Of a stretch of 64,000 bases of DNA, positions 21,901 to 31,938 are shown one piece after another. Position 1 is the stretch's first letter. The number at the start of each line of letters is the position of its first letter. A program made the position numbers and the translations under genes. Source of the DNA: an uncultured Chlorobiaceae bacterium (GTDB taxonomy: Bacteria > Bacteroidota > Chlorobiia > Chlorobiales > Chlorobiaceae); contig CAISRC010000110.1 of assembly GCA_903887845.1 (NCBI GenBank), positions 1 to 64,000 of the forward strand, given 5' to 3'. The notes beneath the pieces are model-generated. The model was not told the DNA's origin. It saw nothing but the letters and a program-made list of their open reading frames with translations, and did no database searches.

Positions 21901-22902
21901 TTAAGTTAAAGAAACATTGTGTTTGTGATTATTCGAAATATTCTGAACTGTCCACTGTACTCTTTGTCTGAATTCTGTCTTGCGAACAGCACACCCCTCT
22001 TTTTGACATATTTCACATGAAAATTCAAGACAGCCATCCGTATGGACAGATAACTCAATATTCTCACCACAATTTTTGTTGACCAGCCGGCTGAGTTTGT
22101 CGATTTCCCGATGAGCTTCGTGAACATTGAGGTACCACGGAACCGTCAGATGGCAGTCAAGATGAAGAGTACTGCCATATTTGATGATGCGCATATTGTG
22201 CAAATCAATCCACTCCGGAGTACGATAAGCCTCCAATAAATCGACCATTTTTTTCAGTAACTTTTCATCAGCTTCATCCATAATTCCCCTGAGAGAGTCG
22301 CGGATAATCTTGTATCCAGTGTAAACAATGAGCAGGGCAAATATCAGGGCAACAACGCTGTCCAGCCATGCCATCTTTGTGAAAAACAGAAGAATCAGCC
22401 CGAGAATAATGCCAATTGTCGAGTAGGTGTCTGACTGAAGATGTTTTCCGCTGGCTACAAGGGCAAGAGAGTTGTTTTGGCGCCCTTTATTTACGGCAAT
22501 CGCGCCAACAACATAGTTTATTATAGCAGTAACCGTTATCAAGAGTATGCCATAATCAAGCTGGCCAATCGTCTCAGGAGTACCAAGAAGGTTTTTGATC
22601 GCCTCATAAATAATGAGTAAACCTGCACAAGCAATCAATGTTCCCTCAATTGCCGCTGAAATAAACTCAACCTTCCCATGCCCGTAAGGGTGATGACGAT
22701 CTTTTGGCTTAGCTGAAATAAAGAGGCTGTATAGACCGATAAAAGCGCTGGTGACATTGACCGTACTCTCCAAAGCATCGGTCAGAATAGCTACAGAATT
22801 AGTAATGTACCATGCACCTAATTTGATAATAAAAAGCAAAACGCCTGTAGCGGCAACAATCTTCTGAAAATTATAGTTTTGTTTAGCTTTTGTCATTACC
22901 AA
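21901..22902 (-). CDS. Cation diffusion facilitator (CDF) family metal exporter
   Basis: A 333-residue CDF protein: six membrane helices, the segment NSVAILTDALESTVN where the metal site would lie, RHHPYGHGKVEF after helix 3, and a C-terminal cytoplasmic domain with metal-binding histidines. The extreme C-terminus is cysteine-containing (LEFSCEICQKEGC). The canonical SDALHS-D motif is replaced by TDALEST-N, so the transported ion is uncertain (Zn, Fe and Mn are all possible). It is likely expressed with the TPR gene 17 bases downstream. Confidence 0.88.
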   Translation of the reverse strand: MVMTKAKQNYNFQKIVAATGVLLFIIKLGAWYITNSVAILTDALESTVNVTSAFIGLYSLFISAKPKDRHHPYGHGKVEFISAAIEGTLIACAGLLIIYEAIKNLLGTPETIGQLDYGILLITVTAIINYVVGAIAVNKGRQNNSLALVASGKHLQSDTYSTIGIILGLILLFFTKMAWLDSVVALIFALLIVYTGYKIIRDSLRGIMDEADEKLLKKMVDLLEAYRTPEWIDLHNMRIIKYGSTLHLDCHLTVPWYLNVHEAHREIDKLSRLVNKNCGENIELSVHTDGCLEFSCEICQKEGCAVRKTEFRQRVQWTVQNISNNHKHNVSLT

Positions 22903-22935: not shown

Positions 22936-23229
22936 TTAATCGAATAATTCACCAAGGAACCCTAATGCACCTCCTTTTCCCTTTCTTCTTCCCGTTTTCA
23001 GGTCAATAGAATAATCGCGATCATCGTCATCATGGTGGCCATGACGTGATTCCTCTTTACGATATTCTCGGGCATAATCCCCGACATGCGACTGAGGTAT
23101 TGCCCTTTCAATTATTTTATCCAGTTCACCCCTGTCAAGCCAGACTCCCCGGCAGGATGGACAATAATCAATTTCAATACCCTGACGTTCAGAAAGAAGC
23201 AGATCGGCATTACAAGCTGGACATTTCAT
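22936..23229 (-). CDS. zf-TFIIB zinc-ribbon protein
   Basis: A 97-residue protein whose first 35 residues form a zinc ribbon (MKCPACN ... YCPSCRGVWLDRGELDKI). The middle contains an HGHHDDDDRD stretch, and the end is glycine/lysine-rich (KGKGGALGFLGELFD). The start at 23229 is preferred over an upstream ATG because AGGAG stands seven bases before it. This is a common small family of unknown function; the ribbon and acid/His-rich region imply metal binding. It precedes the CDF exporter on the same strand. Confidence 0.88.
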   Translation of the reverse strand: MKCPACNADLLLSERQGIEIDYCPSCRGVWLDRGELDKIIERAIPQSHVGDYAREYRKEESRHGHHDDDDRDYSIDLKTGRRKGKGGALGFLGELFD

Positions 23230-23546
23230 GGAAAACTCCTGAGTGATGGTGATGTTGGACAAACCTGTTGACATATTTTTCAACAGCTATTGACTTTATT
23301 TAAATAAAATATACCAGCCGTAATCTTAAAAAAGTCGAAAGCCCAGCTTAATAAATACTTAAAAAAGAAACTCTTAAATTCTGTTATACTCAGTTTCTTC
23401 GGTTTCAGCATTCCAAATGTTTTGCCAATTGTAAAGGAAACAACCCTCTCCCTTCATTATTTTAATCGATTTTTAAGGCTCTTTTCAGACTCTTTTAAGC
23501 AACACTGTTTATCTTATACAAACAAAATCATTTATCGATAGGGAAC

Positions 23547-24125
23547 ATGTGGAAATCACTCCTTGTACAGCGAACCATACCTCTTTCAATCTCTTATCTG
23601 CTGCTGATCATTGCCGGAATCGCACTTGACTACATCCTTCATATTGCGCATCTTGTCTGGGTAGGACGATATTTCGGGATTGTCGGAACGGTATTTTTAG
23701 CGTTGTCTTTTGGATATTCAGCGCGCAAAAACAAGGTTATCAAGAACGGAGCGCTCAAGTTTTTTCTCAAGTTTCACTGCTATACAGGATGGATTGGAAC
23801 ACTGATGATTCTCGTTCATTCTGGCATTCATTTCAACGCGATTCTACCATGGGTTGCAACAACGCTTATGATGGTGGTAACTGCAAGCGGTCATATCGGG
23901 CAATACTTGATAAAAAAACTCAAAGATGATATAACGCTGAAAATGAAACAGCTTGGAGTCTATGCAACAGTGGATGATGAACTGGAACGGCAACACTACT
24001 GGGACAGCCTGACAGTCAAAACTCTTGACCAATGGAGAAGTATGCATAAGCCTATGGTCTCTTTTTTAATCGCATTAACAACGACCCATATTATTGCCAT
24101 ATTTTTTTTCTGGAACTGGAGGTAG
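23547..24125 (+). CDS. Membrane b-type cytochrome (ferric-reductase/cytochrome b561-like)
   Basis: A 192-residue protein with about five hydrophobic helices. Histidines at positions 32, 35, 77, 91, 95, 116 and 181 lie in or near membrane segments (FHCYTG, LVHSGIH, SGHIG, TTHIIAI), a pattern that suits one or two bis-His b haems. It ends four bases before a ten-haem cytochrome c gene whose ribosome-binding site overlaps its last codons. Together they probably form a quinol-to-periplasm electron conduit. Exact family not recognised, so the haem count is inferred. Confidence 0.7.
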   Translation: MWKSLLVQRTIPLSISYLLLIIAGIALDYILHIAHLVWVGRYFGIVGTVFLALSFGYSARKNKVIKNGALKFFLKFHCYTGWIGTLMILVHSGIHFNAILPWVATTLMMVVTASGHIGQYLIKKLKDDITLKMKQLGVYATVDDELERQHYWDSLTVKTLDQWRSMHKPMVSFLIALTTTHIIAIFFFWNWR

Positions 24126-24129
24126 TCTG

Positions 24130-24975
24130 TTGAAACCAATTTTTGTTTTTATTGCAGCAGCAGTTATTCTTGCTGCTCTTGCCATAGCATACCCTGACGC
24201 ACTGCTGAGCCCCGGTAAGCTCACGAAAGGCCATAAGGCGCTGAGCAACGATTGCCTGGCATGTCATACACCTTTTCGCGGCATCACGTCAGTTCAGTGC
24301 ATCAGTTGTCATAAACAGAGTGACATTGGGCATAAAACTGTTGATGGAGCTATTCTGAAAAATAATACCAGCAAAGTTCTTTTTCATAAAGGCCTTGCCA
24401 AGAACTCCTGTGTCGAGTGCCATACCGATCACAAAGGCACTGTTGCCAAAGAAACCGCCAAACCATTCATGCACTCATCGCTTGCTCTTTCAATCAGGAA
24501 CGACTGTATCGCCTGTCACAAAGAGCAACAGCCACAAGATGCCCTGCATAATCTATACGTAAAAGGAAATTGCGTTGAATGCCATCAAACCACAAACTGG
24601 AAGCCCGCCACATTTGATCACAACAGCCTTGCTGCTTCGGGCCTGAAGCAGTGCATCAATTGCCATAAGGCTGATCAGCCTGCTGACAATATTCACTTTC
24701 AATCACAGGCAAGCTGTGGAACGTGCCATAGCACGTCACACTGGATACCAGCAACATTTGACCATAACCGCTATTTCAGACTTGACAGTGATCACAGAAC
24801 AAGTTGCAAAACCTGCCATACAAAAGGAGATAATTACAAACGATATACCTGTTACAACTGCCATGAGCATTCACCGGACAATATTGCGAACGAACATCGT
24901 GAGGAGGGAATCTACAATTACCAGAACTGCATGAAGTGCCATCGCAACGGCAAAGCTGAGGAGGATGAGGATTGA
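24130..24975 (+). CDS. Periplasmic decahaem cytochrome c
   Basis: A 281-residue protein with an N-terminal signal or membrane anchor (KPIFVFIAAAVILAALAIAY) and ten CxxCH haem-binding sites (CLACH, CISCH, CVECH, CIACH, CVECH, CINCH, CGTCH, CKTCH, CYNCH and CMKCH). The recurring W-PATFDHN element between sites points to an internally repeated domain like that of class III/NapC-associated multihaem proteins. A TTG start at 24130 is favoured, as GGAGG lies eight bases before it. It is paired with the b-type cytochrome upstream; likely carries electrons across the periplasm. Confidence 0.9.
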   Translation: MKPIFVFIAAAVILAALAIAYPDALLSPGKLTKGHKALSNDCLACHTPFRGITSVQCISCHKQSDIGHKTVDGAILKNNTSKVLFHKGLAKNSCVECHTDHKGTVAKETAKPFMHSSLALSIRNDCIACHKEQQPQDALHNLYVKGNCVECHQTTNWKPATFDHNSLAASGLKQCINCHKADQPADNIHFQSQASCGTCHSTSHWIPATFDHNRYFRLDSDHRTSCKTCHTKGDNYKRYTCYNCHEHSPDNIANEHREEGIYNYQNCMKCHRNGKAEEDED

Positions 24976-25373
24976 GACACCATGGCGCCAGCATCATTTT
25001 TTATAACCACTCTCACCAGGTGTTGCTGGTGCTGAGGGACAACATACCAACAATCCCATACCCCGGAATGTGGGATGTACCGGGAGGGCATATTGAAAAC
25101 AATGAAACCGCAGAAGAGTGCATTGTCAGAGAGATGCAGGAAGAAATTGAAATTAATGTTGAGGGGTGCACACTTTTCTGTGTCTACGAGTTTTTAGACA
25201 GGACTGAGTATGTTTTTATAAAATATGCCAATTTTAATCTGAAGAACATTATCCTGCATGAGGGACAGATGCTCCGGTGGTTTTCCCGGGATGAAGCCGG
25301 GCAAGTCGAACTTGCCTATGGTTGCGATGAGGTGCTGGCGGACTATTTCAACAGCCTTCCAACAGAACGCTAA
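24972..25373 (+). CDS. NUDIX hydrolase
   Basis: A 133-residue NUDIX protein with a complete box: GGHIENNETAEECIVREMQEEI (G-x5-E-x7-R-E-x2-E-E). Such enzymes hydrolyse nucleoside diphosphate derivatives, for example oxidised nucleotides or sugar nucleotides. The substrate is not apparent. It starts with TTG overlapping the stop of the decahaem cytochrome (TTGA), so it appears translationally coupled to that gene. An ordinary neighbour relationship cannot be assumed to mean function. Confidence 0.88.
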   Translation: MRHHGASIIFYNHSHQVLLVLRDNIPTIPYPGMWDVPGGHIENNETAEECIVREMQEEIEINVEGCTLFCVYEFLDRTEYVFIKYANFNLKNIILHEGQMLRWFSRDEAGQVELAYGCDEVLADYFNSLPTER

Positions 25374-30693: not shown

Positions 30694-31938
30694 TTGCAGG
30701 GTTTCTTGGTCAATAATAATAATACAACGACAATTTTGGAGCAAAACACCTACAATCAATGCCCGGTCTGCGGCTTTCCCCTCTCTCTCAACAGTGCGAT
30801 ATGCCCTCGTTGCGGGAACGATATTTTTGAAGATATCTCCTCTCTTGACCAGCAATCACAGGAATTGCACCATCAGAACATAGAGGGGAAAAAAGCTGAG
30901 TGGTATACCCGCTGTCTTACTGAAAAGCTTAATTTCACCACAGACAATCCTGTGGATCCTGCGAAAAAAAATGTTCATCAGGAAAATGCAAGACCAGCCT
31001 TCAACAACAGTGATGAACTTGAGTTTCTTCGCCGCACTTCCAGAGCTGAGCTCCTGCGGGATGGCGCCTTGCGAAAAAAATGGTGGAATACCTTGACCGC
31101 TGACTGGAAAGAGATCATTAAAAGCAATCTGAAGATTATCCAGGATCCGGCTGACCATGAGCTGATGGAGTTTTTTGAAACAACTCACTTGCGTTGTGAC
31201 AACCGCCGAATCCATAATCTGTTACCCGTTCGGATACTTGAAAAGCTTCAGCAGCTCCGTTGCGACGAGTCTCCTGTTGAGAATCTTGAGCCACTTCTTC
31301 ATCTTAAAAAGCTCCAACGCCTTTATGCATTTGACTGCGACTTTTCATCGCTTGAACCCCTGCGTAACCTTACCAGCCTGAAACTTCTCTGGATTTCCAG
31401 CACACAGGTCAGCTCTCTTGAGCCGATCAGTCAGCTTCTTAACCTTGAAGAACTTTATTGTTCTGAAACAGGAATCAAAGACCTTTCACCCCTGGAAGAG
31501 CTCATCAACCTTGAAAAGCTCAGTTGCTATAAAACAGGCATCGCTTCCCTTCAACCACTCAGTCAGCTCGAAAATCTTATTGAGCTTGGCATAGACAATT
31601 CCAAAGTTGAAGATGTAACGCCACTCGCGGGGCTAAAGAATCTCGAATATCTCCGATGCAATAAAACAAGAATCAAAAACATTGAACCGCTTCGAGAGCT
31701 CTCCGATCTTCGGGAGCTGAGCATAGCAAGCACGCCGCTTGAATCTATCGATGCACTGGAGGGACTTGCCAACCTCGAAGAACTCTCTCTGTCGAATACC
31801 CTCATTACCACCATCGGCCCGATCATGCACCTGCAGCAACTTGAAAAAATAGAGATTTCGACTGGCATGATTCCTGAAGAAGAAATTGAACGCTTCATCG
31901 AGCTTCATCCGCACTGCGAAGTGGTACTGAAACCATAA
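30694..31938 (+). CDS. Zinc-ribbon and leucine-rich-repeat protein
   Basis: Up to 414 residues. The N-terminus has a rubredoxin/zinc-ribbon-like motif, CPVCGFPLSLNSAICPRCG. A charged linker and a W-rich helical segment (KKWWNTLTADWKEIIKS) follow, and then eight or so LRRs of about 22 residues in the internalin style (L-LE-L-CSETGIKDLSPL). No signal peptide or membrane helix, so probably cytoplasmic. The start is unclear: TTG at 30694 has no Shine-Dalgarno sequence and another TTG follows. Likely a protein-protein interaction module; function unknown. Other chlorobial genomes are known to carry LRR proteins. Confidence 0.75.
   Translation: MQGFLVNNNNTTTILEQNTYNQCPVCGFPLSLNSAICPRCGNDIFEDISSLDQQSQELHHQNIEGKKAEWYTRCLTEKLNFTTDNPVDPAKKNVHQENARPAFNNSDELEFLRRTSRAELLRDGALRKKWWNTLTADWKEIIKSNLKIIQDPADHELMEFFETTHLRCDNRRIHNLLPVRILEKLQQLRCDESPVENLEPLLHLKKLQRLYAFDCDFSSLEPLRNLTSLKLLWISSTQVSSLEPISQLLNLEELYCSETGIKDLSPLEELINLEKLSCYKTGIASLQPLSQLENLIELGIDNSKVEDVTPLAGLKNLEYLRCNKTRIKNIEPLRELSDLRELSIASTPLESIDALEGLANLEELSLSNTLITTIGPIMHLQQLEKIEISTGMIPEEEIERFIELHPHCEVVLKP

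Follow-up and report, generated by a model that had tools for sequence, protein, structure and literature searches.

The window, that is, the whole stretch of 64,000 nucleotides analysed here, contains a gene for a small membrane protein with two conserved histidine pairs (hereafter designated the b-protein), directly followed by the gene for a ten-haem cytochrome c. We found that this pairing recurs in several phyla, that the expected haem ligands of the b-protein are conserved, that the cytochrome partner follows a module grammar, that an NAD(P)H-type reductase gene lies beside many of the proteobacterial pairs, and that the b-protein is remotely homologous to the PCC3 inner-membrane protein. 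From these features we infer haem binding, topology, direction of electron flow, donor, and acceptor of the pair. On balance, we favour the reading that the pair is an exit for electrons in the inner membrane, by which they would pass from the cytoplasm or from quinol through two haems b and then onto a haem wire in the periplasm.

Two-gene unit in the window

The genes of the b-protein and the cytochrome are separated by a gap of 4 bp (Table 1). The listed open reading frame of the cytochrome opens at TTG 24094, and the TTG at 24130 was preferred on account of its spacing from GGAGGT and the hydrophobic helix at the start of the protein. The earlier note had described a tightly linked two-gene unit with paired histidines in membrane helices and ten haem sites, which is borne out by the narrow gap, two HX13H motifs, and 10 CxxCH motifs. 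It had also called the two cytochromes joined; they are adjacent and encoded by two separate genes, with no fusion. An apparent fusion in the relative L096 was rejected, since the long overlapping frame there is out of frame with the b-gene. No porin or second cytochrome was found among the near neighbours of the window pair. Elsewhere in the window (30694-31938), a 414-aa ORF resembles a leucine-rich-repeat protein and carries an N-terminal zinc-ribbon motif, as judged by eye.

Table 1. Features of the gene pair and its neighbours in the window
Feature	Position	Strand	Remarks
Cation-diffusion-facilitator (CDF) transporter (PF01545)	21901..22902	-	Pfam; class recurs near the pair; functional link not implied
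TFIIB-type zinc-ribbon protein (PF13453), divergent neighbour	22936..23283	-	Pfam; adjoins the pair in other loci too; functional link not implied
Membrane protein gene	23547..24125	+	ATG 23547 to stop 24125, 192 aa
b-type membrane cytochrome (predicted): five predicted helices, H77/H91 + H167/H181, SGHIG = SGXXG on helix 4	23547..24125	+	
GGAGGT, likely ribosome-binding site of the cytochrome gene	24118..24123	+	Read from sequence
Ten-haem cytochrome c gene	24130..24975	+	TTG start 6 bases behind GGAGGT, 281 aa
N-terminal hydrophobic helix of the cytochrome	24130..24195	+	Model helix 3-20, pLDDT about 85; alignment
NUDIX hydrolase ORF	24972..25373	+	Overlaps end of cytochrome gene; neighbour only, found just in nearer relatives of the window

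Membrane b-protein

The HX13H motif occurs exactly twice in the b-protein (at H77 and H167), against a mean of 0.31 in 2000 shuffles, and its double occurrence is not due to chance. The histidines of each pair, H77/H91 and H167/H181, stand 14 residues apart on helices 3 and 5; judging from the sequence, they should ligate two haems b. All 24 aligned b-proteins, which come from several phyla, share these four histidines as well as H32, H95, R41, and R164; H116 is conserved only within the Chlorobiaceae set. The structural model, of moderate confidence (pLDDT 72.7), has five helices (residues 5-33, 37-60, 69-94, 99-135, and 142-189), and the SGHIG motif occupies residues 114-118. Positive charge is found in the loops preceding helix 3 and joining helices 4 and 5; by the positive-inside rule, the N-terminus would thus lie inside and the C-terminus in the periplasm, on the side of the c-domain. 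H32, R41, and H95 would lie towards the periplasm, close to the outer haem.

The b-protein is assigned to no family by Pfam or NCBIfam and falls below every Pfam cut-off. It scored 16 bits against Ferric_reduct (PF01794; cut-off 28), and the same model gave weak matches in 6 of 24 relatives (best E 4e-5). Comparisons by hhalign with two single proteins of the ferric reductase (FRD) type were not significant (E 0.09 and 0.054), a Foldseek search with the model yielded nothing in the PDB at E ≤ 0.001, and a PDB profile search with the b-alignment gave no match up to E 10. The matches of the model in VIA-align all lay below the level that is meaningful for helical bundles and comprised no NADPH oxidase (NOX) chain: a designed di-haem bundle (9h4c; Z 9.4, rmsd 2.5, 105 aligned), cytochrome b561 (4o6y_B; Z 8.8, rmsd 3.9, 140 aligned), and a b6 chain (7r0w_A; Z 8.8, rmsd 4.7, 131 aligned). 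Alignment by hhalign with a PCC3-type inner-membrane protein gave E 8e-14 with a probability of 98 over 95 columns, which makes the b-protein and that of PCC3 remote homologues.

Ten-haem cytochrome and its module series

The cytochrome has 10 CxxCH motifs in 281 aa, against a mean of 0.11 and a maximum of 2 in 2000 shuffles; the ten motifs are not a product of chance, and the cytochrome is the sole frame with two or more of them in the whole window. It holds one haem per about 28 residues (281/10), and a similar figure is given for wire-like cytochromes in the accessible part of PMC5566968. In Pfam, it exceeds the cut-offs of Cytochrome_C7 (PF14522; 50.6 versus 24.8 bits), Cytochrom_CIII, Cytochrom_c3_2, and Paired_CXXCH_1. 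No other match to Cytochrome_C7 above the cut-off was found in the window genome, where one sub-threshold match has four CxxCH in an open frame. There is no conserved cleavage site after the N-terminal helix among the relatives, so that the helix is probably an uncleaved membrane anchor. A PDB profile search with the c-alignment gave four weak multihaem matches, and the full model of the cytochrome is unusable (pLDDT 54.7). Many homologues end in an acidic run (DDD or EDED, longer in Spirochaetia) at the C-terminus, corresponding to about 24945-24972 of the window, which is perhaps a docking patch for a basic partner.

The CxxCH motifs of the cytochromes follow a common grammar, in which a four-haem N-part and a C-part, both fixed, enclose k di-haem modules, each about 48 residues long. 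The general spacing is 15, about 37, 32, and about 20, then k pairs of about 27/21, and finally 30, 15, and 26; the window cytochrome, with spacings of 15, 37, 32, 22, 27, 21, 30, 15, and 26, has a single optional module (k = 1). With a tolerance of one residue, 8 + 2k haems (k = 0-6, i.e., 8 to 20 haems) fit 100 of 104 complete cytochrome genes from distinct loci, distributed over k = 0 (31 genes), 1 (29), 2 (8), 3 (16), 4 (10), 5 (4), and 6 (2). For this count, 146 loci were reduced to 115 distinct b DNA sequences, excluding the PCC3-type L127-L132; 9 cytochromes truncated at contig ends and 2 loci without a cytochrome were set aside, and one CxxCH of L104 lying ahead of the likely start was left uncounted. 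An earlier, stricter count, in which some duplicates were less well chosen, gave 90 of 101. The misfits are L058 (run of N), L061 (one site lost), L094 (broken), and L126. Chlorobiaceae span the full range of k = 0-6 (62 genes with 3 misfits, in a tally that takes in Chlorobiales MAGs), and the other lineages have k = 0 or 1 and once 2 (42 genes, 1 misfit).

Each 48-residue module contains two CxxCH and the invariant residues W10, F15, H17, P37, and H42, as found in 139 of 139 modules (those of exactly 48 residues among 216, same-locus duplicates included). With two CxxCH and two further invariant histidines, a module should be able to ligate its own two haems. Copies within one gene can be as much as 97% identical in their DNA, which indicates recent duplication; those of Chlorobium ferrooxidans are older (up to 69% identity). 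The value of k changes between close relatives: near neighbours in the tree of b-proteins, where branch support is modest, have 10 (window), 14 (L031), 16 (L033), 16 (L032), and 10 haems (L034). The tree comprised 69 rows, namely the window and 68 of the 80 loci from a scan of named genomes, 12 having been dropped because the b-frame was shorter than 180 aa or the cytochrome truncated at a contig end. Cultured strains have 18 haems (C. ferrooxidans DSM 13031, L064) or 10 haems (Chlorobaculum thiosulfatiphilum DSM 249 and Chlorobaculum sp. 24CR). Individual haem counts may be low, since MAG assemblies can collapse repeats.

Occurrence of the pair

The distinct loci, 115 in number, belong to Chlorobiaceae and to several other phyla; at 113 of them, a multihaem, CxxCH-rich gene adjoins the b-gene. 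In a set of 61 relatives, the b-protein was present in 31 of 37 genomes of its genus, its own genome counted, and in none of 12 genomes from other families of the order. In a phylum sample of 296 genomes, it was found in 42 of 48 genomes of the genus, in 13 of 17 of the sister genus, and also in three distant genomes at E below 1e-47. Altogether, 55 of 65 sampled Chlorobiaceae genomes, some of which are incomplete, carry the pair, which has therefore been unrecognised rather than rare. The 80 loci of the named-genome scan include C. ferrooxidans DSM 13031, Pelodictyon luteolum CIII, Chlorobaculum thiosulfatiphilum DSM 249, and many Chlorobiaceae MAGs, as well as MAGs labelled Calditrichaceae, Spirochaetia, Ignavibacteriales, Magnetococcales, Comamonadaceae, Rubrivivax, and Singulisphaera (the last label being doubtful). 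Among Proteobacteria, 14 full-length b-proteins were found in 250 genomes of a Comamonadaceae-type family and b-protein matches in 20 of 48 genomes of a Magnetococcales-type class, groups that are named "Burkholderiales-type" and "Magnetococcia", respectively, in this analysis. This patchy spread suggests transfer between phyla.

Some loci depart from the usual pair. In Chlorobiaceae, L097 and L094 contain fragments of the b-gene or the cytochrome and are probably decaying copies, and a second ten-haem cytochrome of the same type lies without a b-gene in genome G009 (L180:5646-6530), directly behind a trio of DUF4405, regulator, and kinase genes. In the Burkholderiales-type group, L127, L128, L129, L131, and L132 encode larger b-proteins of the PCC3 type that are remotely homologous to the window protein; they have multihaem partners, with 24 haems in the two examined further.

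Reductase gene in proteobacterial loci

In 24 of 40 proteobacterial loci, a gene for an NAD(P)H-flavin-[2Fe-2S] reductase lies upstream of the pair, and in 16 it is absent. It was found in 14 of 19 Burkholderiales-type loci (L110 and L114-L126) and in 10 of 21 Magnetococcia loci (L105, L134, L136, L137, L139, L140, L144, L219, L141, and L138), where it stands across a 517-base gap in L141 and is a remnant in L138; L145, among the 11 Magnetococcia loci scored as being without it, offers no more than 161 bases upstream. The proteobacterial loci were tallied by hand, with L113 and L133 omitted because they duplicate L106 and L105. The reductase gene has roughly 400-470 codons and is mostly 5-35 bases from the pair. 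In L105, Pfam recognised NAD_binding_1 and C-terminal Fer2 ([2Fe-2S]) domains, and an apparent N-terminal helix can be read from the sequence; in the other loci, the gene was assigned by similarity. Of the five Burkholderiales-type loci without the reductase, two (L104 and L106) have the pair behind ccoP-/ccoG-type genes (cbb3 oxidase). No orthologue of the reductase was found in the Chlorobium genomes searched, where the best match of the window's own genome had E 2e-5 with 28% identity over one domain.

Comparison with known systems

The accessible part of He et al. 2017 (PMC5566968) describes unnamed inner-membrane proteins (IMPs) that adjoin multihaem cytochromes and have five helices, HX13H on helices 3 and 5, and SGXXG, with C. 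ferrooxidans among the examples; such pairs are usually without a porin and often have another redox protein in the cluster. The window pair resembles them in its five modelled helices, the HX13H motifs on helices 3 and 5, and the adjacent multihaem cytochrome. This kind of pair is therefore already in print without an assigned function, but that part of PMC5566968 gives it no name, spread among phyla, module rule, or identity of the extra redox protein. It also reports that most such proteins have no significant homology to PCC3/PCC4 proteins, whereas our profile comparison detects one to the PCC3 type; it further proposes a quinone-active role for the PCC3/PCC4 proteins of the same design, places PCC3-type homologues in clusters proposed for iron oxidation, and judges a role in extracellular transfer less likely because porins are absent. 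One of its sentences can be read as placing a porin beside the C. ferrooxidans pair; we found none within about 10 kb on either side, and another locus may be meant. The extracellular exchange that the earlier note had suggested thus finds no support near the pair.

With PCC3, whose IMP has about 300 aa, the b-protein shares a homologous membrane core, two HX13H, SGXXG on helix 4, and multihaem partners. The window pair differs in lacking the long insert before helix 5, the barrel-like protein, and the second very large cytochrome, and the W-X3-H-X13-H present on helices 3 and 5 of PCC3 occurs only on helix 5 of the window b-protein (W163-H167), with no such W on helix 3. L181 and L182, labelled PCC3 here from gene order and motifs, encode a b-like protein together with two cytochromes, the first with 24 and the second with 16 or 38 haems, and a long protein whose end is barrel-like.

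In FRD (PF01794), too, helices 3 and 5 each carry a pair of haem-b histidines spaced as HX13H (PMC5566968, in the part available). The likeness to FRD and NADPH oxidase extends to the FAD/NAD(P) reductase adjoining the pair in proteobacterial relatives, whereas the window b-protein has five helices and 192 aa, has no FAD/NAD(P) domain in its chain, and lies below the Pfam cut-off; moreover, its acceptor would be haem c in place of oxygen. Like c7/c3-type wires, the cytochrome passes the Cytochrome_C7 and class III cut-offs and has regular repeats with extra histidines, but here a single homologous gene keeps its ends fixed and varies from 8 to 20 haems, two at a time. DmsE/MtrA-type decahaem cytochromes share the ten haems and a weak NCBIfam match; the window cytochrome has a membrane anchor and a b-cytochrome partner in place of a porin, and membership was rejected (TIGR03508, 32.3 bits versus a cut-off of 192.2). 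An assignment to the NapC/NrfH type, named in the earlier note as the result that would overturn its view, fails, as there is no NapC/NirT-type Pfam or NCBIfam match up to E 1; the only match to the NrfH model comes from a distant relative (18 bits versus a cut-off of 134).

The literature searched offered nothing closer to the pair than PMC5566968, and no earlier account was found there of the strict two-haem module series or of an NAD(P)H-type reductase as a recurrent partner. The portions consulted of four papers on Chlorobium and Prosthecochloris (PMC8302410, PMC5374249, PMC8125076, and PMC7762298) treat cyc2 or partner cytochromes and do not mention the pair; cyc2 is reported there in 40% of Chlorobium mOTUs (PMC8125076).

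Proposed electron route and its alternatives

In the proposed route, the five-helix protein would hold two haems b, one near each face of the membrane and ligated by the two HX13H pairs, so that electrons could cross the membrane, and the helix-anchored cytochrome would carry them onward into the periplasm along a chain of bis-histidine haems c. The fixed four-haem N-part would meet the b-protein and the fixed C-part the acceptor; since the k self-contained di-haem modules would sit between them, the length of the wire would be set by their number. The b-haems of many Proteobacteria would be fed from the cytoplasm by an NAD(P)H-flavin-[2Fe-2S] reductase anchored in the membrane, and the triad would resemble an NADPH oxidase split into its parts, with the haem wire replacing oxygen as acceptor. 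Because no such reductase was found in Chlorobium, the donor there would more likely be menaquinol or another cytoplasmic reductant, and for the same reason the outward direction in Chlorobium is extrapolated from the other lineages. Net flow is most likely outward, with the pair as an outlet to periplasmic or outer-membrane acceptors.

A broader reading, possible though tentative, makes the pair the inner-membrane core of a widespread trans-envelope outlet, in which the reach of the wire (8-20 haems) would be tuned by evolution and the cytoplasmic input exchanged between lineages; the whole would resemble an NADPH oxidase in split form whose acceptor is a modular haem wire. Duplication or loss of the 48-residue di-haem module would lengthen or shorten the wire between fixed docking ends, and 8 to 20 haems would correspond to about 8 to 20 nm, provided that the wire scales like MtrA. 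If this is true, the homologues form a natural matched series with 8, 10, 12, 14, 16, 18, and 20 haems, all flanked by the same pair of ends, on which conduction and reach could be measured against wire length. The reductase-linked versions would show cytoplasmic reducing power being sent to the periplasm, bypassing the quinone pool, and most green sulfur bacteria would possess an electron route that was not found in the literature searched on their sulfur and iron photosynthesis.

The b-protein may instead oxidise menaquinol at the periplasmic face, the wire delivering electrons to soluble cytochromes or an oxidase without NAD(P)H. CbcL and the cytochrome b of the bc1 complex provide a functional likeness for such a quinol:cytochrome oxidoreductase. 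It would accord with the missing reductase in Chlorobium, with the invariant H32, R41, and H95 if these lie near the outer haem as supposed, and with the five reductase-free Burkholderiales-type loci, including the two behind ccoP-/ccoG-type genes, as well as with the quinone-active role that the accessible part of PMC5566968 proposes for PCC3/PCC4. The NAD(P)H-type reductase beside the pair in 24 of the 40 proteobacterial loci argues against it, and we regard it as rather unlikely. Exchange between the quinone pool and the periplasm, as the earlier note envisaged and He et al. 2017 guessed, is possible for the pair, but many proteobacterial relatives adjoin the reductase instead.

Electron uptake, in which Fe(II) or other outside donors would reduce the wire and the membrane potential would drive electrons over the two haems b to a quinone or, where the reductase is present, to NAD+, appears quite improbable. 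The photoferrotroph C. ferrooxidans does carry the pair, with its 18 haems, and clusters proposed for iron oxidation do contain PCC3-type homologues (PMC5566968, in the part available); the pair is, however, no marker of iron oxidation, as it is carried by 55 of 65 Chlorobiaceae genomes and by Chlorobaculum thiosulfatiphilum, and no porin partner was found within about 10 kb of it in C. ferrooxidans. Least credible to us is a periplasmic redox buffer, metal reductase, or sensor accessory under the control of an upstream two-component system, with no conduit to an acceptor. Genes for a DUF4405 protein and/or an OmpR-type regulator with a sensor kinase upstream of the pair in 28 of 69 Chlorobi loci, and CDF exporters near the pair above expectation in Chlorobium and proteobacterial genomes, would suit such a role, but the DUF4405 and two-component genes are also present in genomes without the pair (G001 and G020), and the CDFs look like different subtypes, with counts uncorrected for kinship.

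Other neighbouring genes

The DUF4405 and two-component genes of those 28 loci lie on the same strand as the pair. In the window genome, the DUF4405-regulator-kinase trio is on a separate contig (L177), where, as in C. ferrooxidans, it neighbours a HisF-like gene, so that the pair probably moved away from the trio. Together with the pair-less genomes that carry these genes, this led us to reject a dependence of the pair on the two-component system.

CDF exporters occur within 5 kb of the pair in at least 7 of 31 pair-carrying Chlorobium genomes (0.39 expected) and within 6.5 kb in at least 4 of 29 proteobacterial genomes (0.38 expected), with distances taken by eye and counts uncorrected for kinship. 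They stand in several orientations and are apparently of different subtypes; their excess over chance in two groups serves as a lead only. In some loci of Chlorobi and Proteobacteria, P-type cation ATPases are also found near the pair, alongside the recurring CDF exporters, and a TFIIB-type zinc-ribbon gene lies within 2.6 kb of the pair at 10 of the 69 Chlorobi loci, recurring at L109 and L187 as well.
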